NCBI GenBank assembly: GCA_000333855.2
Contig: CM007319.1
Coordinates: 62,618-126,617, forward strand
Length of the DNA: 64,000 bases
Source of the DNA: Endotrypanum monterogeii
Taxonomy: Eukaryota > Euglenozoa > Kinetoplastea > Trypanosomatida > Trypanosomatidae
Reading direction: 5' to 3'
The position numbers were made by a program, and so were the translations under genes. The notes under the pieces are model-generated. The model was not told the origin of the DNA and did not search any database. It saw only the letters and a program-made list of their open reading frames with translations. The stretch's first letter is position 1; each line of letters starts with the position of its first letter. Below, piece by piece: positions 4,401-57,039 of this stretch.

Positions 4401-6200
4401 ACAGGGGTATCCCGAGGGGGTGTTGTGTCGGAGGGGGAGGAGGAGGGAGATACCTAGCCACTTCTCGTCTGTTATTTTGTGGGGAGGGGCCGAGGCAAGT
4501 CGCGGAAAGAAATGTGGCTGGCTTGACGCAGCGTATCCTCCCACTTCCGAATGTCTTTTTGTAATGTATGAGCACTACACGACTTTGCACCTCTCATCGA
4601 TGCAGAGTTCAATCGTGTCATGGCGGAGGTCATGTAAACTGATATGCAGCTCTCTTGAAGTGTGTACTTGCGCACGCACTTTGGGAGACGCGTTAGCTTT
4701 TCTTTTCCATCGAGACATTGCTGCTCATCCAGGCGTTGCTGAAGGTAAATCAAGCGGTGTTGGATGGGTTCAAGGCAGATCCACCCAGTCATTCTTAGGA
4801 CTTCCCACCGATGAGCTCCGTGGGATCGAGCCCCGTGCTCAGTATTTCAGCCTCTCCGTCAATAATGTGAACTGGGCGTCATTTTTTCTGACATCTGTCC
4901 CTGTCAGTTGATGCGATGGAGGCAGAGGCGTGCAGGCGTCTCAGATGCCGGGGAATCTCTTCCTCTCTTTCCAACAAATACAAAACCCAACCTGGTGTAC
5001 TGTTGAGGCGCATCAACACCAGTGATTTCAATGAGAGCTTGGTAGTTTCGCAAAGTGGATTCACCAGAGGAAGGGCGAAGGGGGGGGGAGGGCAGCAGCA
5101 GCTCTCCAATCCCGGAGACAGATGAGCGTTTCTACGCCCTCCAAGCGCCTCTCGGTTTGTGGCTACTGAGCTCCAGGTGAAGCACTGTGGAGTCGGAGAG
5201 GGTAATGACTCGCATCGAATTTTTTTTTTTTTGCCTTCTGTCCCAATGCTGTACCTCTTGGGATCCCAATCGATGATATAGTGTGCCATGACTCAAATTG
5301 ATTTTTGCAAATGCTTTGTGGATCCTTTGTGGGTGCGCGAAGAGATCGTTGCCGTCTTCAAGCTGGGGGATACCTTTCCGCATGTTGTCCAGGCTTTCAA
5401 GAGTGGGCTGTGTCGTTGACTGGGGGTAGCGACCTCCCTGGCGAGTACGGCAGTTAATGTGGTACTTCCCGTGCTGCATCGTGATCCCGGGAGTGCGACT
5501 ACAGAAACGAAAGAAGGGGGGACGAAAAAAAGTGCGCGTTTTCTTTCTTGCCACGGTTGTAATCAACTCGTGTATTATCTTCTTAGAGTGTAGGTTGGCA
5601 CGTGCGCACCGGCCCGCTTGCAGAAGAGACGTCGCATGTGTCATGCAACCCGCTGATGTGCAGGCAGCGTTTACCTTGAGGTGCTCCCCGCAGCACCTGT
5701 ACTGCTGATCCTATCGTAGCCACTCCCGTTTTCTCCATACAGAGTGTCCTGCTTTGGTGATCTGAGCTCTGAGGGCGCTGTTGAGAAATATATCTCCCTC
5801 TCGAAACCACAGCAGATGTGCCCTTTCGCCCCTCATTCCAGTCAGAAGAAAAAAGTGTGTGAATACACAGACTCATGAAAACACAAGCAGTCAAGTAGGC
5901 GTGTATTACACATAAGCATTGTGAAGATCCTTGCCATCGACTTTAGATCACGTCGTCGCTCGCTTTCCAGTGTGCACATCGTCTGTGTGTGTGTGTGGGG
6001 GGTGTTTGGCGGCGCAGTGAGCGCGGGAAATTTGAGTAACGAGCTAATATGATCATCATGTTTGCCGAGCTCTGCTGCTGTATGCTTCAATGTGTCTTGT
6101 ACTTTGCTTTCTCCCTCCACTTGACTTCTTTGCTCTGCATCTGGCTTTCTGTTAACAACGGAAAACATCTGCATTTTTTTTTTTCTTTACGTCGCCGCGA

Positions 6201-6218
6201 TTTTTTTTTTTTCTGAAG
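6201..6218 (+). promoter_or_regulatory. Predicted trans-splice acceptor for the repeat/MFE-like gene
   Basis: A run of 13 T (preceded by another T-tract at 6174-6186) is followed by AG at 6217-6218. The predicted 5' UTR to the ATG at 6439 is about 220 nt. Confidence 0.6.
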
Positions 6219-6438
6219 CTGCTAAATCAGGGGACAGCACCGCTCACCAGTCACCTCGCTGTCATCCCCGTTGGCGCTTGCGGAGAAATCTGCCGCTCCG
6301 CCCTAGGTGAGCTGCATTTTGATATATTGGCAGAAGCTGCTTTTTACAAGTAGCTGTCAAGTCTAAGGGTTTACTTGAGCGCACCTTCACTCGATTTCCG
6401 TCGTGTCACTGCTCCGAAAACCAACTACGCAGTGTTTC

Positions 6439-9400
6439 ATGCACATGCGTCGTTTTCACCGACTGGGGCTATCTGCTCGCGTCGTCGGCTTCTTAACTAG
6501 TAACGGTCTATATTTGAGCTCTTCAGCCGTCCATGCCGATGCACTGACTTCACAAAAGTCAATACCGCCAACACCTTCGTGTGCACCTCCAGCTGCCGCT
6601 CCGGCTGGTTGTCCTGAGGTCTTGGAGGCTCCTCTTTCGCCGCCTCCTGCGCCTGCCAAGCCCGTTGTGACACAGTCAGCGCCTGCTGCACCCGCACCGC
6701 CTGCCAAGCCCGCTTTGGCGCCTTCAGCCCCTGCTGCACCCGCACCGCCTGCCAAGCCCGTTGTGACACAGTCAGCGCCTGCTGCACCCGCACCGCCTGC
6801 CAAGCCCGCTGTGGCGCCTTCAGCCCCTGCTGCACCCGCACCGCCTGCCAAGCCCGTTGTGACACAGTCAGCGCCTGCTGCACCCGCACCGCCTGCCAAG
6901 CCCGCTGTGACACAGTCAGCGCCTGCCGCACCCGCGCCGCCTGCCAAGCCCGCTGTGGCGCCTTCAGCCCCTGCTGCACCCGCACCGCCTGCCAAGCCCG
7001 TTGTGACGAAGTCAGCCCCTGCCGCACCCGCAGCGCCTGCCAAGCCCGTTGTGACACAGTCAGCGCCTGCTGCACCCGCACCGCCTGCCAAGCCCGTTGT
7101 GACGAAGTCAGCCCCTGCTGCACCCGCAGCGCCTGCCAAGCCCGTTGTGACACAGTCAGCCCCTGCTGCACCCGTGCCGCCTGCCAAGCCCGCTGTGGCG
7201 CCTTCAGCCCCTGCTGCACCCGCGCCGCCTGCAAAGCCCGTTGTGACGCAGTCAGCGCCTGCCGCACCCGTGCCGCCCGCCAAGCCCGCTGTGACACAGT
7301 CAGCCCCTGCTGCACCCGCACCGCCTGCCAAGCCCGCTGTGACACAGTCAGCGCCTGCTGCACCCGCGCCGCCTGCCAAGCCCGCTGTGGCGCCTTCAGC
7401 CCCTGCTGCACCCGCGCCGCCTGCAAAGCCCGTTGTGACGCAGTCAGCGCCTGCCGCACCCGTGCCGCCCGCCAAGCCCGCTGTGACACAGTCAGCCCCT
7501 GCTGCACCCGCACCGCCTGCCAAGCCCGCTGTGACACAGTCAGCGCCTGCCGCACCCGCGCCGCCCGCCAAGCCCGCTGTGGAGAAAAAATCTACTCGAG
7601 AGAACAGAATTTCCACGTCGAGAGGTAGCGGTGTTCCGCGCAGCAACTTGTTGTCTTCAGGTACACGGCGCAAAATTGTAGAGCGTGCCGATGGGGATGT
7701 GGGGCAGACAGCCATAAACCCGGCTCACCTGCAGCAGCGCTCTGACCTAAGTGCTTTGAAGGCCCCCCACGGTTCTTGTATTACACCACCACCACCGGCG
7801 CCGAGGCTGTCGGTTGCACCACCCCCACCCCCCGCTTCATCGCCTACGCTATCGGCGCACGCCTCCATCGCTCCTACGTCACGCAGCACCGCGGAGGAGG
7901 ACAGCATGGAGGGCCATAAGAGTTTTTTTGAGGCTTTGCAGCCTTCTCTCTCAACTCGCGTTGAGGCAGCAGTGCGAGACGGTAAAGCAGCTCACCCCTT
8001 GAGGACCTCTCGGCGCATGGAGAAGCTGCAAGCGGAGAAACTTCTGTTGCATGTTCCGCGTGAAAACAAGGGTACGCCGGCTTGTGCTTCTCCGTCTGTG
8101 GAGGAAGTTGCTGAAGGTGATTGGGCGTCTGTTAAACGGCAAGACAGACTGCAGCCATTACCGGCGTCGATCTCTGAGAGCATCGAGCAGCATGAAATAC
8201 CTGTAGAGCTGGGAGGCGAGGGCAGCACTGAGAACACCACGGCTCCCCTCCCCAGTGATCACTGTTTTCGAGAACCGACTACCTCAGCTGTTCCAGACTC
8301 CACGCTGTTCTCTCCTGGACTTGCAGCCCGACTTTTTGACACTCCTGCAGTAGAACGGCTGCCTAGCGAAGTGTGGTGCGCGGCAGTCCCCGAAGGTGGT
8401 GAGCACGACGCCACTCCGCGACCGAGTAGAGACAACAGTGAAGTATGCGTATTGGTTTCATCTTCTGTCACACCTCAACAATATGCGATAACGGTGCAGC
8501 TGCGGGAGCCGCCGTCAAACGCAATGGCTGCCGTGAGGGCCGTTGCAGGTGCATTGGGTGCTGTGGAGTCTCTCTGTGACGCAGCGGTGGCTGCCAAGAA
8601 CACAGCCCAGGGCGACTCGGCGCCGAAGACAGCCTCATACATTACTGTGACATGGTGCGCTTTGCTGCACTGCCCTTTCTTCACAGCGGAAGAAAGTCCC
8701 ATCGAACTGTCGTTGTCGGAGCGTGTGGGTTATATGGAGGCGAAAGAGTTGGTAATCAAGCGCTTCCATCATCTAGTGTCCCAATATGGGACACGTGTGC
8801 GCTTCACAGCAGTAGCGAACACTGAATCGGTGCTCGACTTTGGCGCGGAGGTGTTTTTCGCATGCCCTGAGCGGCGATTAATCTCTCCGAGAAGTGTGGC
8901 GTGCGACGGCTGTGACGAGGAAGAAAGACCGTTGGAGCCTTCGCCGTCCGTTGGCGCGACCTCTGTTGGCTTTCCGCTCAGTCGCGTGGGTATTTTCCCG
9001 ACAACCTCGACGGTGGCTTGCCTACAATGTCTGTGCGGGTCATTTCGCACGGTGAAGTGGATACCTGTGCTGCACACGTACGACGTGAGGAGTTTGGCTG
9101 TAGCCGGTTTGCTAAGCCTTTCTGACACGCCCGTTAACACGTCAAAGGGTAGTAGATGGGAGCAGTGGCCACTGCGGCTTGAGCGGATTATCCTCGAGCG
9201 TTTTTGCCAGTCCCCTACACAGCGCCAGTGGGTGATGGAAACACTTTTATGGGGTCGGGGTTTTCACTCCGCTGAGGTGCGTCACAAGGCATCGGGCGCC
9301 ATGTCAGCAGACATCTCGGACAGTTGGTATGCCTATGCAATTGGTGTTCTTAGTCGAAATCCGTCATTAGCCAAGACGAACGCTGTAGACAGCGTTTGCT

Positions 9401-10662
9401 CGGAGAGTGTCGCCAAGTGTCACAAAGTTCTGGAAGCATCTTCATGCAGAGGCGCTGCTCACGCGACACATGTTCACACAATCTCTGTGAGACGATCCCT
9501 GCCTCCTCTGCCACATCACCGCTTCCTTGCTTTTCCGCACTCGCAGCAGTCCATTTGGAAGGATAAAGTCAAATCTCTCTCAACCACGGCTGATACTGCT
9601 GGAGCAGCCTTGCTGCTCGACTGCTCTGAAAGAGCGGTCATAGATACAGTGGACTTGGTGAAGACGCACCTCACCTGCGCTTCTGAGTTGCGCACTCGTT
9701 TGCCCTATCTTAACGTCGTGCTGATTGGTGGAGCTGCTGCAGCTCAGCCGGTTCTTCAAAGCTTGCCCTGTGCTGCTGTCATCTCTTCCGCGTCAGCGTT
9801 TTTCAAAGTAGGACATTCTGCCGTGCAGCAGGTGCGTTTGTACGCCTCACCAAACTGGCCTACAGATCTTCAGCAGGATACGTTGTTGGCAGCCTTGACG
9901 TACCTCCAGCGTCGCCGCACACCCCACGTTATCGCTGCCAGTGCAGCACCACAGCGGCTTTTGTTAGCACTCTGCGAGGAGGCGGTTTTGATAGCACGCG
10001 CGCTGTTTGATGCATCTGCCGTCGAGTCCGCGGCTCGAGAGGAGCTGGGTTTGTGCTTTGGACCCTTTCAGTTGATGGACACTTACGGCACTGCTGCAAT
10101 CGCTTCCATGGCGGCAGACGAGCGTTCGCGCATTTCAGTGGCTAATGATGTGACTACTCGAGTTGCCGTGACCCCTGTATGTCAACTCGAGGGGTGCATG
10201 CGCTCCATGGTCCGTGAGGGGCTTTTGGGCTCAAGAAGTGCGCGTGGCGGCTTCTACGACCCCGTTTCGGAGGTGCGCGGAGGAGGCGCTGCTTCCCTGC
10301 AGCTTCGCAAGGGAGTGCTGAGCGCGCACGTCTGTCACAACACGATATCGTATCAAGTGAGAGATCGACTTCGCGCGGCCGTGGTTAATGTGGCGTGCGA
10401 GCTTCTGACCCACGGCGAAGTCCAGAGTGTTGGCGATATTGACCTTTTGTCAATGAGCGCCCTCGGCTGGCGTGAGGAGACGGGCGGAGTTCTTTTCCAG
10501 ATTGACGAGTTGGGGCAGGACGGCCTTCCACGGCTGGTGGAGAGCATGGGGCACTGGGCTGCGGTGGGTGCTGCAACTCATCTTGCACCTCACCCACTGC
10601 TCCTACGCATGGTCGAGAAGAGGGTTCGTTTCACCAACCTCAAGACGAGCGGTTTGCTGTGA
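6439..10662 (+). CDS. Proline-rich repeat protein with degenerate MFE-alpha-like (crotonase + 3-hydroxyacyl-CoA dehydrogenase) module
   Basis: A 1407-residue protein starting at the first ATG of the frame. Residues 1-60 are Arg- and Ser-rich with few acids, like a mitochondrial presequence. Residues 72-375 are 19 tandem 16-residue units of the form PAKPxVxxSAPAAPxP. Residues 376-660 look disordered. Residues 670-900 resemble a crotonase fold: REPPSNA (689-695), a strand-helix with DFGAE (800-804), and VGFPLSRVGIFP (843-854) in place of the usual GxPExxLGIxP. About 1040-1300 resembles 3-hydroxyacyl-CoA dehydrogenase: GPFQLMDTYG (1208-1217) and GGFYD (1270-1274). About 1305-1375 looks like the second HAD C-terminal repeat. 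By my alignment one crotonase Glu is kept (E804), the other is Leu847, the HAD His is Leu1134, and the GxGxxG loop is missing. I therefore infer a non-catalytic relative of the trifunctional-enzyme alpha subunit. Family membership is by motif only. Confidence 0.75.
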   Translation: MHMRRFHRLGLSARVVGFLTSNGLYLSSSAVHADALTSQKSIPPTPSCAPPAAAPAGCPEVLEAPLSPPPAPAKPVVTQSAPAAPAPPAKPALAPSAPAAPAPPAKPVVTQSAPAAPAPPAKPAVAPSAPAAPAPPAKPVVTQSAPAAPAPPAKPAVTQSAPAAPAPPAKPAVAPSAPAAPAPPAKPVVTKSAPAAPAAPAKPVVTQSAPAAPAPPAKPVVTKSAPAAPAAPAKPVVTQSAPAAPVPPAKPAVAPSAPAAPAPPAKPVVTQSAPAAPVPPAKPAVTQSAPAAPAPPAKPAVTQSAPAAPAPPAKPAVAPSAPAAPAPPAKPVVTQSAPAAPVPPAKPAVTQSAPAAPAPPAKPAVTQSAPAAPAPPAKPAVEKKSTRENRISTSRGSGVPRSNLLSSGTRRKIVERADGDVGQTAINPAHLQQRSDLSALKAPHGSCITPPPPAPRLSVAPPPPPASSPTLSAHASIAPTSRSTAEEDSMEGHKSFFEALQPSLSTRVEAAVRDGKAAHPLRTSRRMEKLQAEKLLLHVPRENKGTPACASPSVEEVAEGDWASVKRQDRLQPLPASISESIEQHEIPVELGGEGSTENTTAPLPSDHCFREPTTSAVPDSTLFSPGLAARLFDTPAVERLPSEVWCAAVPEGGEHDATPRPSRDNSEVCVLVSSSVTPQQYAITVQLREPPSNAMAAVRAVAGALGAVESLCDAAVAAKNTAQGDSAPKTASYITVTWCALLHCPFFTAEESPIELSLSERVGYMEAKELVIKRFHHLVSQYGTRVRFTAVANTESVLDFGAEVFFACPERRLISPRSVACDGCDEEERPLEPSPSVGATSVGFPLSRVGIFPTTSTVACLQCLCGSFRTVKWIPVLHTYDVRSLAVAGLLSLSDTPVNTSKGSRWEQWPLRLERIILERFCQSPTQRQWVMETLLWGRGFHSAEVRHKASGAMSADISDSWYAYAIGVLSRNPSLAKTNAVDSVCSESVAKCHKVLEASSCRGAAHATHVHTISVRRSLPPLPHHRFLAFPHSQQSIWKDKVKSLSTTADTAGAALLLDCSERAVIDTVDLVKTHLTCASELRTRLPYLNVVLIGGAAAAQPVLQSLPCAAVISSASAFFKVGHSAVQQVRLYASPNWPTDLQQDTLLAALTYLQRRRTPHVIAASAAPQRLLLALCEEAVLIARALFDASAVESAAREELGLCFGPFQLMDTYGTAAIASMAADERSRISVANDVTTRVAVTPVCQLEGCMRSMVREGLLGSRSARGGFYDPVSEVRGGGAASLQLRKGVLSAHVCHNTISYQVRDRLRAAVVNVACELLTHGEVQSVGDIDLLSMSALGWREETGGVLFQIDELGQDGLPRLVESMGHWAAVGAATHLAPHPLLLRMVEKRVRFTNLKTSGLL
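6652..7563 (+). repeat. In-frame 48-bp tandem repeat, 19 units
   Basis: Nineteen uninterrupted 48-bp units, then a partial 20th (PAKPAVEKK). The four variable residues define unit types VVTQ, A(L/V)AP, AVTQ and VVTK. Units 12-15 (7180-7371) and 16-19 (7372-7563) form a 192-bp duplicate with one mismatch, which points to recent expansion by a four-unit block. Confidence 0.97.
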
Positions 10663-29260: not shown

Positions 29261-30157
29261 ATGTTGGCATGTACCCCACTTCGCTCTGCAGCGTCGGCTG
29301 GCCTGTCTCTAGACAAGTTCAAGGTGCTGCGCCAGTCCGAATGCGTCCTGCGATACGAAGCCGCGTCACAGGTGGCTATTTTGTCAATGGAGCGACACGC
29401 GCGAAAGAATGCGATAGGCGTCAGCTTCCTGAACTGCATTCAGCAGGCCATTGACATGTGTAGTGCTGGGGCGCCCTCTGCTGCTCGCACCACCCCCGCT
29501 GACGCCGACTGCCCACCTGTGCGCTGCTTGATCGTTTCCAGTGCCGTGCCAAAAGTTTTCTGTGCTGGGGCAGATTTGAAGGAACGAAAGGAAATGTCTG
29601 TGGAACAGTCGCGCGCCTTCGTGCAGCGGCTGCGCCAAACTTTTAATGATTTGGAGGACCTGCCCATTCCGACCATCGCTGCCATAGAGGGCAAGGCGCT
29701 CGGTGGCGGCATGGAGCTTGCGTTGGCGCTTGATATGCGCGTGGCAGGCGACGAGGCTGCCATGGGCTTCCCGGAGACAGGGCTTGCCATCCTTCCCGGC
29801 GCAGGTGGCACAGTGCGTGCCCCTGCTGTTCTGGGCGTTAGCCGTGCACTGGAGATGATCCTTACAGCGGAGCAAGTATCCGCCCAGCGTGCTCTGGAGC
29901 TTGGGCTTGTGAATCGTGTCGTGCCGGCTGGATCGGCCTTGGACGCTTCGCTGGATCTGGCCTTGCGCATCTCCAGAAATGGGCCGCTGGGCGTGTGCGC
30001 CGCGAAAAAGGCAGTACGATCTTCTGTTGGCAAGACGCGGGCGGAGGCGATGCGGGTGGAATCGGATCAGTACGAGATCGTGCTTGCTACCGAGGATCGC
30101 CTCGAGGGTCTCAGGGCCTTTGCGGAGCGTCGCCCCCCAGTATACAAAGGTAAGTAA
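29261..30157 (+). CDS. Enoyl-CoA hydratase/isomerase family enzyme, probably mitochondrial
   Basis: A 298-residue crotonase-family enzyme. The N-terminus (about 20 residues with Arg and Ser and no acid) suits a mitochondrial presequence. The oxyanion-hole motif is FCAGADLKER (100-109). The second Gly-rich motif is GKALGGGMELAL (144-155) with catalytic E152. The third is GFPETGLAILPGAGGT (169-184) with catalytic E172. Both acid/base glutamates of a hydratase are therefore present. The extended ADLKER motif and overall length recall the AUH/3-methylglutaconyl-CoA hydratase branch (leucine breakdown), but other enoyl-CoA hydratases cannot be excluded. It is an intact crotonase in the same window as the degenerate crotonase-like module at 8.4-9.1 kb, and so a useful comparison. 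Confidence 0.9.
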   Translation: MLACTPLRSAASAGLSLDKFKVLRQSECVLRYEAASQVAILSMERHARKNAIGVSFLNCIQQAIDMCSAGAPSAARTTPADADCPPVRCLIVSSAVPKVFCAGADLKERKEMSVEQSRAFVQRLRQTFNDLEDLPIPTIAAIEGKALGGGMELALALDMRVAGDEAAMGFPETGLAILPGAGGTVRAPAVLGVSRALEMILTAEQVSAQRALELGLVNRVVPAGSALDASLDLALRISRNGPLGVCAAKKAVRSSVGKTRAEAMRVESDQYEIVLATEDRLEGLRAFAERRPPVYKGK

Positions 30158-51591: not shown

Positions 51592-52386
51592 ATGGCTTTG
51601 GGCAAGAACAAGCGCATCAGCAAGGGTGGCAAGCGCGGTAAGCGCGGGAAGGCGCAGGAGACGATGGCGCGCAAGGAGTGGTACGACGTCGTGGCGCCGG
51701 CGAACTTCGATCAGCGCCAGTTCGCCAAGACGATCTGCAACAAGACGCAGGGTACCCGTATCGCTGCCGACGTGCTCCGTGGTCGCGTGTTCGAGGCCAA
51801 CCTCGCTGACCTGAACCGCTCCGCTGGTGAGGAGGAGGCGTACCGCAAGGTGCGCTTCACTGTTCAGGAGGTGCAGGGCCGCAATCTGCTGACGCAGTTC
51901 CACTCGATGGAGGTGACAACGGACAAAATGGCGAGCCTTCTGCGCAAGTGGTGCACGACGATGGAGACGACCGTGGAGGTGAAGACCGAGGACGGTTACA
52001 CGATGCGCCTCTTCGTTGTTGCGTTTACGAAGCCGCAGGCGAACCAGCAGTCGCGTAACTGCTACGCGAAGCAGCGCTTGGTGAAGTGGCTGCGCATGCG
52101 CATCACGAAGATGATTAAGCGTCGCCTGTCGAAGGTTCAGATCAGAGAGGCTGTGTCCATCATCACGCGCAACGTGCTGAGCGATGCGCTGGTGCGCCGC
52201 TGCAACCCGATCGTGCCTCTGCGTGAGCTGCGCATCCGCAAGGTGCGCGTGGTGCGCTCGCCGAAGTTCGACGCGCAGGCGTTGCTGAATGCCCACGGCA
52301 CCATCCCAACGTCGGTGGAGGCTGACTCGCGCGAGGTGGAGGAGGCAGTCGAGGCTGCGCCAGCGGCGGAGAAGGCTGCTGAGTAA
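51592..52386 (+). CDS. RPS3A: 40S ribosomal protein S3a (eS1), copy 1
   Basis: A 264-residue ribosomal protein of the S3a/eS1 family, a component of the small-subunit platform near the mRNA exit site. The N-terminus [19 protein letters not shown] and the phrases [10 protein letters not shown] and [17 protein letters not shown] are characteristic. The Ala/Glu-rich tail ([15 protein letters not shown]) is usual. Length matches the family. Codon third positions are strongly G/C, as expected for a highly expressed gene. The coding sequence is identical to copy 2 at 53608, and identity continues 45 bp past the stop. The 5' flanks are unrelated up to a few bases before the ATG. The short leader (24 nt) is typical of trypanosomatid ribosomal-protein genes. 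Confidence 0.98.
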
Positions 52387-53607: not shown

Positions 53608-54402
53608 ATGGCTTTGGGCAAGAACAAGCGCATCAGCAAGGGTGGCAAGCGCGGTAAGCGCGGGAAGGCGCAGGAGACGATGGCGCGCAAGGAGTGGTAC
53701 GACGTCGTGGCGCCGGCGAACTTCGATCAGCGCCAGTTCGCCAAGACGATCTGCAACAAGACGCAGGGTACCCGTATCGCTGCCGACGTGCTCCGTGGTC
53801 GCGTGTTCGAGGCCAACCTCGCTGACCTGAACCGCTCCGCTGGTGAGGAGGAGGCGTACCGCAAGGTGCGCTTCACTGTTCAGGAGGTGCAGGGCCGCAA
53901 TCTGCTGACGCAGTTCCACTCGATGGAGGTGACAACGGACAAAATGGCGAGCCTTCTGCGCAAGTGGTGCACGACGATGGAGACGACCGTGGAGGTGAAG
54001 ACCGAGGACGGTTACACGATGCGCCTCTTCGTTGTTGCGTTTACGAAGCCGCAGGCGAACCAGCAGTCGCGTAACTGCTACGCGAAGCAGCGCTTGGTGA
54101 AGTGGCTGCGCATGCGCATCACGAAGATGATTAAGCGTCGCCTGTCGAAGGTTCAGATCAGAGAGGCTGTGTCCATCATCACGCGCAACGTGCTGAGCGA
54201 TGCGCTGGTGCGCCGCTGCAACCCGATCGTGCCTCTGCGTGAGCTGCGCATCCGCAAGGTGCGCGTGGTGCGCTCGCCGAAGTTCGACGCGCAGGCGTTG
54301 CTGAATGCCCACGGCACCATCCCAACGTCGGTGGAGGCTGACTCGCGCGAGGTGGAGGAGGCAGTCGAGGCTGCGCCAGCGGCGGAGAAGGCTGCTGAGT
54401 AA
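53608..54402 (+). CDS. RPS3A: 40S ribosomal protein S3a (eS1), copy 2
   Basis: The same 264-residue protein as copy 1, with no nucleotide difference across the 795-bp coding region. Its upstream region is T-rich where that of copy 1 is C-rich. The 3' UTRs part company 45 bp after the stop. The two copies therefore make one protein from transcripts with different leaders and different 3' UTRs. Perfect identity over the coding region together with unrelated flanks points to recent gene conversion between the copies, or to a very recent duplication that is sharply bounded. Both copies appear functional. Confidence 0.98.
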
Positions 54403-55350: not shown

Positions 55351-57039
55351 ATGCTTGGCGGCTTCGACAGCTACGCCCACCTCCGGCAGCGGGATCATCG
55401 GCCCTCTTTAGGCCACTATCAGCTCGAGCCGGGGTTTGGACCTGAATCCGGTTCCTCAAAGCGGTCAATCTTGACCCGTCATTACCAGCCTCTTGAAGGT
55501 GAGTCATGCAGTGTGGGGCCTGGTGCGTATGTGCTTCCCACGACCATCGGCACAGGTCGCGCAACGCGCTTTGGCCCAGAGTTGAGTGATACGGGTGTAC
55601 CTGTGGCTCGGGTAGCTGCTCGCCAGAGCTCTGGCGATGGCGCTCTTCCCATCATCAGCAATCCGAAGCAGTACAGTATGGCACTTTACCCCAACACCCC
55701 CTCGTACAGTATTAGTAGTCGGCTGAAGTCGGAGTGGGAAAAGGGTACCAATGCTTCTCCTGGTCCCGCGGCCTACGATGTGCCCGGGCACTTCGACACG
55801 CTGGACCCGAAGGAGTATCGGCTACATCAGTCGTCGGGTCCCGCGCCCGGTGTTCACTTGGGCGTTCGCACAGCGCTCCCGGGAGAGCGCGAAAAAGAAG
55901 GCATCCCAGGCCCTGGAGCATATCAGCTTAAGCGGTTTGGCGACGAGGTTCCCTGCTCTCGCGAGCCCCCCTTAGGTCGAGGTAGTCGCCGAGGCCATAC
56001 TGCCGACACTCCTGGTCCTGGAGCATATAACGACCCGACTTCCATTGGGTACCGTGCTGACCAAGTGTTGACAAAGCGTCGCTTTATAAACGGCAACACA
56101 TTCGGTGGCCGCTGGCGTGGGCGAGAATACCACACAGCCGGACCTGGTCCGGCTGCCTACAGTATTCTCACCGCGACAAAGCTGTTGGAGAAAAACAAAA
56201 GACATGCGCCTAAGTTCTTAAAGACTAAGCCAAAGTTAGATCGAAAGTCTGTGGAGGATGCTTCAGCGGCGCGGCTGAAGCGCCGATTTTTGAAGAGTGG
56301 CGCTCCGGACACATATCATACACTGCCGTCTGATTTCGACTTCGATTTCCGAAAGGGTAAGACGATTGGCGCCCGGTTACACGAGCCGTTGGCGCAAGCT
56401 ACCTCGGCTTTCTCGGCGGGGCAGCCGATAGACACCAGGCCAAGTGGCACTCGTCCCTTCTGGGAGTCCCCGCCGCCGCAAGGTGGACGCTTTGCACCCA
56501 CTTCTTTTGATGGGTTGTCTGCCGCCGAGGCGCAGCCCGGTGCAGGGCACCTCTCACAGGGCGTGAACTCCACTCCCGGGCCGGGTGCGTACAATGCGAA
56601 AATGGGTCTGACCGCCCGCCGTGCGCCGGCGTCGCTGTTTGGACGAATGTTGAGTTCAAAATCCATATCTGCCGAAAACGGAGTACCAGGCCCTGGCCAC
56701 TACCGCCTCGTGGACGAGAGGAACGCGAAAAATGTTATTTTCTACAAGGGCGATTTCCACCCACGAGGTGCGCTTGGTCAGGGAGGGGCCGCTGTAGCGG
56801 ACTGTGACATTGGCCCAGGCTGGTACTACAACGACGATACCATGTATAGTAGAAGCATCAACGGCGACCGCGTCGTCAAGAAAGGTTTCACGATGGGCGT
56901 TCGCTACCCAGCGAGGGCTGTTTATCAGCACTGCCGCCCTTACGACGAAACAACGAACATTAACTGCATTTACGACGACGAGCAAACATGGGAGGCGCGG
57001 CCCAGACAGCCGTTGTCACCGGTTCACCGAAGGCAGTAA
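55351..57039 (+). CDS. STPGR/SHIPPO-repeat protein (ODF3/CIMAP-like), probably axonemal
   Basis: A 562-residue protein with about eight copies of the PGPGxY-type motif spaced 30-90 residues apart: VGPGAY, SPGPAAY, IPGPGAY, TPGPGAY, GPGPAAY, TPGPGAY, VPGPGHY and IGPGWYY. Most are followed by Ser/Arg/Lys-rich stretches with FG or F-G-R turns. This is the STPGR (SHIPPO) repeat found in outer dense fibre protein 3 and other ciliary microtubule-associated proteins. There it runs along or inside axonemal doublets. A flagellar location is therefore likely in this flagellate, by analogy only. There is no membrane segment or catalytic domain, and the protein is basic and Pro/Gly-rich throughout. The start is an ATG directly after AG-rich splice-site sequence. 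Confidence 0.85.
   Translation: MLGGFDSYAHLRQRDHRPSLGHYQLEPGFGPESGSSKRSILTRHYQPLEGESCSVGPGAYVLPTTIGTGRATRFGPELSDTGVPVARVAARQSSGDGALPIISNPKQYSMALYPNTPSYSISSRLKSEWEKGTNASPGPAAYDVPGHFDTLDPKEYRLHQSSGPAPGVHLGVRTALPGEREKEGIPGPGAYQLKRFGDEVPCSREPPLGRGSRRGHTADTPGPGAYNDPTSIGYRADQVLTKRRFINGNTFGGRWRGREYHTAGPGPAAYSILTATKLLEKNKRHAPKFLKTKPKLDRKSVEDASAARLKRRFLKSGAPDTYHTLPSDFDFDFRKGKTIGARLHEPLAQATSAFSAGQPIDTRPSGTRPFWESPPPQGGRFAPTSFDGLSAAEAQPGAGHLSQGVNSTPGPGAYNAKMGLTARRAPASLFGRMLSSKSISAENGVPGPGHYRLVDERNAKNVIFYKGDFHPRGALGQGGAAVADCDIGPGWYYNDDTMYSRSINGDRVVKKGFTMGVRYPARAVYQHCRPYDETTNINCIYDDEQTWEARPRQPLSPVHRRQ

Follow-up and report, generated by a model that had tools for sequence, protein, structure and literature searches.

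A multifunctional enzyme alpha-like protein of Endotrypanum monterogeii and other trypanosomatids that appears to have lost most of its catalytic residues

Introduction

What use might a cell have for a protein that is built like a multifunctional enzyme (MFE) of fatty acid oxidation and appears to lack the residues on which that chemistry depends? This question is raised by a gene in the 64,000-nucleotide stretch of Endotrypanum monterogeii DNA analysed here (contig CM007319.1, positions 62,618 to 126,617), hereafter called the window. The gene lies on the plus strand at 6439..10662 of the window and encodes 1407 amino acids from an ATG at 6439 to a stop at 10662. An earlier note, made from the letters alone, had read the product as an MFE-alpha-like protein without its catalytic residues, presumably a mitochondrial scaffold or regulatory member of that family. 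The homology and the loss of the catalytic set have held, while mitochondrial location is only suggested and a scaffolding or regulatory function is something that we infer. Our preferred reading, which we consider moderately probable, is a mitochondrial pseudoenzyme scaffold with a flexible Ala/Pro arm that bears conserved motifs.

Results

Homology of the C-terminal core

Comparison of sequences and profiles confirms that the C-terminal core, of about 750 residues, is homologous to the alpha subunits of multifunctional and trifunctional enzymes (TFE) such as FadB, FadJ and HADHA. The motifs VGFPLSRVGIFP, GPFQLMDTYG and GGFYD, to which the earlier note had pointed, are all present in the translation, and Pfam PF00725, the C-terminal domain of 3-hydroxyacyl-CoA dehydrogenase (HAD), matches in two stretches with 42 bits against a cut-off of 22.1 (E=1.4e-10). 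The same domain was above its cut-off in 3 of 3 further family members tested; ECH_1 and 3HCDH_N were absent at E<=10 from the Pfam scan of the window protein, and the T. brucei member P0027 has no precomputed Pfam domain. Pairwise matches of the window protein alone are weak, the best solved structure being plant MFP2 (E=0.0032, in the HAD part) and the TFE-alpha2 of its own genome being matched with E=6.5e-4 over residues 1250-1398 (149 residues), so the homology of the crotonase part rests on orthologues, profiles and fold. The T. rangeli member P0026 matches the anaerobic E. coli TFE alpha subunit (E 1.5e-13) and human HADHA (E 1.4e-8) in two stretches each, and the aerobic E. coli subunit 6tnm with E 6.9e-5; we take the anaerobic subunit to be FadJ and the aerobic one FadB. 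A search from the T. theileri member reached at least 10 FadB-like proteins besides (E 2.9e-8 to 1.8e-4). Aligned profile to profile, the 30 family cores and a FadB-like profile share 573 columns in global mode (E=5.6e-31) and 558 in local mode (7.4e-22), and all 50 of the 50 Foldseek matches listed for the predicted core are of MFE or TFE-alpha type, with 6ysv, the anaerobic E. coli subunit, as the best. Domain, orthologue, profile and fold evidence thus bears out the MFE-alpha-like assignment, and profile alignment and fold search found similarity to both crotonase and HAD.

Crotonase and HAD domains follow one another along a single chain in the window protein and its family, by sequence, profile and fold. 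On the plus strand, the crotonase-like (enoyl-CoA hydratase) domain spans approximately 8437..9123 (residues ~667-895), a shortened Rossmann-like HAD N-terminal domain approximately 9499..9912, the first HAD C-terminal repeat 9952..10248 (PF00725), and the second, placed by homologue and profile alignment, approximately 10264..10659. The C-terminal repeats are the best-kept part. A first structure prediction, from 16 close relatives, was poor (predicted local distance difference test score 57.3), and a later model was used in its place. A PDB profile search with full-length rows was set aside: Ala/Pro low-complexity matches headed the 24 sequences listed, and MFP2 came last (E=1).

Catalytic residues

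Catalytic columns were read from a profile alignment of the 30 family cores with 13 FadB-like rows, on which the His and the GxGxxG loop were judged because a MAFFT alignment misaligned the Rossmann and His region (its FadB rows read L at 1134). Of 26 loci, 24 were dropped as short, and the FadB-like profile took up only L003 and L004 (>600 aa); this profile is headed by the genome's own TFE-alpha2, as a 663-residue piece that is about 150 N-terminal residues short of the full reading of 812. The 30 family rows are not independent, six being from T. cruzi and two from T. brucei. Among the controls, every one of the 11 FadB-like rows that have letters in the crotonase columns keeps Glu119, Glu139 and GGG (L003 and L004 are gapped), and all 13 rows keep the GxGxxG glycines together with the His, Glu and Asn of HAD.

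In the hydratase half, the glutamate equivalent to FadB Glu119 is kept as E804 in all 30 members, as the earlier note had it, and the GGG before it is indeed replaced, by D800-F801-G802 (8836..8850, plus strand, for D800-F801-G802-A803-E804). Here every member has the aspartate and A803 (30/30 each); at the second position 27 have F and 3 have L, and at the third 27 have G and 3 have A. The second glutamate, FadB Glu139, was correctly located at Leu847 (8977..8979, plus strand): this position holds Leu in 15 members, Ser in 15 and Glu in none. Around it G844, F845, G851 and P854 are invariant (30/30), and the glycine after GxxP, at 855, has become S, A or T (G in 0/30). The separate crotonase of the window at 29261-30157 does keep both Glu.

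In the dehydrogenase half, the GxGxxG columns hold non-glycines or a gap, and in a pattern scan 10 of the 30 cores showed a GxGxx[GA] string by chance, none of them at the dinucleotide loop (a stretch that the P0010 model lacks). The earlier note was right that the motif is missing from a shortened loop; its placement at 1043-1061 gives way to a Rossmann beta1-loop-alphaA at about 1029-1049 in the model. Similarly, the catalytic His is absent as claimed, though its column is Arg1133 (30/30) rather than the adjoining Leu1134 (9835..9840, plus strand, for the pair). Opposite the HAD Glu the family has a gap, and in the HAD Asn column it reads Q, K, H, G or R (Asn 0/30); all 30 members keep Asp1061, where the predicted second strand ends. 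Judged by these columns, the loss of dehydrogenase function is much firmer than that of hydratase function, and one missing Glu would not by itself prove the hydratase half dead.

Because D800, E804 and R1133 are invariant, two further readings stay under consideration. A ligand sensor, which has lost catalysis, still binds acyl-CoA in its crotonase pocket (E804/D800) and reports its levels to a partner, would account for the 30 of 30 conservation of these two residues and of G844, F845, G851 and P854, and for the retained crotonase-like fold. We regard it as possible and rather doubtful: the GGG loop is changed to D-F/L-G/A, no member has G at 855, and only 17 of 226 crotonase columns are invariant, fewer per column than in the HAD C-terminal repeats. 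Changed chemistry is familiar in the crotonase superfamily, and a repurposed enzyme, in which the Asp800/Glu804 pair and perhaps Arg1133 supports another crotonase-type reaction, would fit the acidic residues that are invariant in what was the active-site loop, and the invariant Arg in the HAD His column. This seems improbable to us, given a dehydrogenase half without GxGxxG, His, Glu and Asn and a Pfam scan that returned no crotonase family at E<=10.

Family, age and paralogues

The 30 members, among the matches listed, comprise the window protein, 15 relatives (Porcisia, Leishmania and Leptomonas among the sources), one T. theileri protein and 13 further Trypanosoma proteins (melophagium, grayi, cruzi, conorhini, rangeli, brucei and vivax). 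The protein searches scored candidate lists, so that these counts are lower bounds and a taxon missing from the lists need not lack the gene. Identity to the window core falls from 74.1% in Porcisia through 49.5% in Leptomonas pyrrhocoris to 29.2% in T. brucei. One row set (A3) comprised 27 of the 39 proteins found, plus L002. A tree of 28 rows, which took 14 of the 30 family rows, unites the family in a single clade (100/100) whose stem measures 1.54 changes per column; within it the Leishmaniinae and the Trypanosoma members lie on opposite sides. This single clade, and the shared Asp800, Ala803 and Arg1133, indicate that the residue losses probably predate the Leishmania-Trypanosoma split. 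Decay of a pseudogene in a single species is ruled out, as the same losses recur in the 29 other proteins, from Leishmania, Porcisia and Leptomonas to Trypanosoma, including T. brucei; they are shared by all 30 members examined. The L. donovani model P0010, named 'integral membrane protein', has a membrane-protein-like start and lacks approximately residues 995-1037 (window numbering), and is probably fused or misassembled. A phage search gave two records annotated fadJ.

The genome holds two other MFE-alpha genes, one of TFE-alpha2 type (C26) and one of TFE-alpha1 type (C33), each with both Glu kept, as well as a separate HAD gene on C36. A hidden Markov model (HMM) of the family scores the TFE-alpha2 at 92.5 bits, the FadB-like P0030 at 72.6 and the TFE-alpha1 at 41.4, and the gene is best explained, on sequence grounds, as a third, old paralogue of the TFE alpha subunit. 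The thiolase loci L035 and L036 (C31) adjoin runs of N, which mark an assembly gap or a masked stretch.

According to passages of PMC4262433, Leishmania and T. cruzi have both TFE-alpha1 and TFE-alpha2, and BLAST found no TFE-alpha2 in T. brucei or T. gambiense; in a passage of PMC9512073, SCP2 is given as the one thiolase isoform that was detected in T. brucei. The third, divergent group is present in T. brucei brucei (P0027), gambiense (P0028) and T. vivax (P0029). T. brucei keeps the protein although reportedly it has no TFE-alpha2 and, as thiolase, only the SCP2 isoform; the partner is therefore unlikely to be a beta-oxidation complex. For the same reasons, we find it more improbable still that the protein is a regulatory subunit of an active mitochondrial trifunctional enzyme, sitting at the alpha position beside the thiolase, although TFE-alpha2 scores best among the genome's MFE-alpha genes and the HAD C-terminal repeats are so well kept; as far as those passages go, a role exclusively as a regulator of mitochondrial TFE-alpha2 is unlikely.

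N-terminus and Ala/Pro linker

Read from a GTG, the plus-strand open reading frame (ORF) spans 6403-10662, and the ATGs at 6439 and 6445 lie two codons apart. The second (MRRF..., 1405 aa) is the likelier start, as MRR opens 13 of the 30 family models, the window protein being counted from 6445, with 0-2 acidic residues among the first 30; many of the remaining models look truncated or start differently. A putative mitochondrial presequence (MRRFHRLGLSARVVGFLTSNGLYLSSS...; 6445..6531, plus strand) has 4 R/K and 0 D/E in its first 30 residues, a basic, acid-poor character judged from computed composition alone. Together with the higher family score of mitochondrial-type TFE-alpha2 than of TFE-alpha1, the MRR N-termini hint at a mitochondrial location. 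A pyrimidine-rich run with a terminal AG 5' of the start (6160-6218) is a plausible trans-splice acceptor.

Downstream, a 48-bp tandem repeat (6650..7582, plus strand; 19.4 copies of 48 bp, or 4.9 copies of 192 bp) encodes an Ala/Pro-rich linker (APAAPAPPAKP...), and the Trypanosoma orthologues carry similar repeats. The 48-bp repeats build a 192-bp higher-order unit over the same interval, and antisense ORFs across it (6456-7715 and 6497-7555) were taken as by-products of the repeat. Two T. cruzi entries of the gene share their beginning and are of unequal length (1435 and 1465 aa), and the repeat may therefore serve as a length-variable marker.

The linker varies in length, yet both lineages show short motifs in it: IAPPS/T, a stretch that looks helical and closes with PL, and L-x-PLP...HEIP. 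In the window protein, on the plus strand, these would correspond to IAPTS (7867..7881), a possible cognate of IAPPS/T that falls in different alignment columns in two genera; to FEALQPSLSTRVEAAVRDGKAAHPL (7927..8001), a possible cognate of SLDEEIERARATRPL in Trypanosoma with S, P and L invariant in 13 rows; and to RLQPLPASISESIEQHEIPVELGG (8146..8217), with L, H and P invariant in 13 rows and 25-42% identity to the Trypanosoma rows. By these alignments the last, L-x-PLP...HEIP, is the best supported of the three. Conserved islands within a variable linker would be typical of docking sites.

Other features of the window

The translations of two 264-aa ORFs (51592-52386 and 53608-54402) appear to be identical; the two ORFs are presumably ribosomal protein S3A-like and suggest a recent tandem duplication. 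An ORF at 55351-57039 carries sperm-tail PG-rich (SHIPPO) repeats and is likely a microtubule or flagellum protein.

Discussion

Our findings point to an old TFE-alpha paralogue from which, by alignment, the dehydrogenase residues and most hydratase residues have been lost. According to the preferred scaffold reading, the protein would be imported into the mitochondrion, as its N-terminus suggests, and its crotonase and HAD shell would most likely serve as a protein-binding scaffold, while the long, length-variable Ala/Pro arm may dock onto partner proteins through its IAPPS/T, S-L...PL and L-x-PLP...HEIP motifs. Going further, one could tentatively picture a mitochondrial complex outside beta-oxidation that is organised around the TFE-alpha pseudoenzyme, with the dead sites rebuilt (Asp800/Glu804, Arg1133) for binding or new catalysis and the arm recruiting partners; we hold this more elaborate proposal to be unlikely.

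Several observations weigh against the scaffold reading or its parts. The C-terminus is -SARM in 13 of 14 Trypanosoma members (P0016-P0029), the T. vivax P0029 having SART, and this -ARM ending, similar to a type 1 peroxisomal targeting signal, looks like a peroxisomal signal that a mitochondrial location leaves unexplained and that would argue for glycosomes; in the window protein and in most Leishmania members the C-terminus is SGLL. The difference between the two lineages might reflect dual targeting, or a signal lost or gained. The modelled placement of the domains is unlike that in solved MFEs (template modelling score ~0.37), and assembly cannot be inferred from it. The HMM prefers TFE-alpha2 to the FadB-like P0030 by a small margin only, and the 28-row tree, because of its long branches, does not place the origin of the family among the TFE-alpha paralogues. 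At position 847, Leu stands in 15 of the 16 rows on the Leishmaniinae side, and Ser in P0012 and all 14 Trypanosoma rows, so that the second Glu may have been lost twice. Active single-Glu crotonases exist, and the invariance of E804, D800, R1133 and D1061 (30/30) suggests that there may still be selection for a ligand or for altered chemistry. In the arm, the second motif has only 15-26% identity between the genera and an uncertain register, and T. brucei reads HMVP in place of HEIP.

Very improbable, finally, is a flagellar axoneme protein, for which a review figure legend (PMC3499766) sets LmjF35.0290, possibly the Leishmania orthologue, beside the central-pair proteins FAP101/FAP221, but that gene was assigned here solely by counting from SPT2 = LmjF35.0320 (so given in a passage of PMC5519370, with SPT also named in one of PMC7952579), the match could stem from the Ala/Pro repeat alone, and the protein has an MFE-alpha-like core and a presequence-like N-terminus.

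Set beside known systems, the family shares with TFE-alpha2 (LmjF.26.1550 type, here C26) and human HADHA the crotonase-HAD order, the HAD C-terminal repeats, GPFxLxD and GFY-type motifs and the MRR start. It differs from them, at 18-19% identity in the profile alignment, by the absence of Glu139, GGG, GxGxxG and the HAD His, Glu and Asn and by an added N-terminal extension of about 600 residues with the Ala/Pro repeat. Glycosomal TFE-alpha1 (LmjF.33.2600, Tb927.2.4130, here C33) has the same architecture and keeps both Glu, GAGTVG and HFF, with the lower HMM score. The E. coli subunits, of which the anaerobic one is the best match to P0026 in sequence, carry the catalytic residues and place their domains differently from the family model. 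CDYL is a nuclear, non-catalytic crotonase-fold protein without HAD domains; it too has the fold without hydratase chemistry, whereas the window family has apparently lost both halves of a multifunctional enzyme.

No description of this protein as a pseudoenzyme appears among the literature matches listed, as far as their titles, abstract beginnings and passages go. Public records name the T. theileri, T. grayi, T. conorhini and T. rangeli members and one T. cruzi member '3-hydroxyacyl-CoA dehydrogenase', which would mislead metabolic reconstructions because the dehydrogenase residues examined are gone. The family also qualifies the statement that salivarian trypanosomes lack a second TFE-alpha-like gene, and it points towards a partner system that came up in none of the searches made here. 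Kept in both Leishmania and Trypanosoma after the loss of these residues, it may offer a tractable test case for the conversion of a multifunctional enzyme into a structural part.
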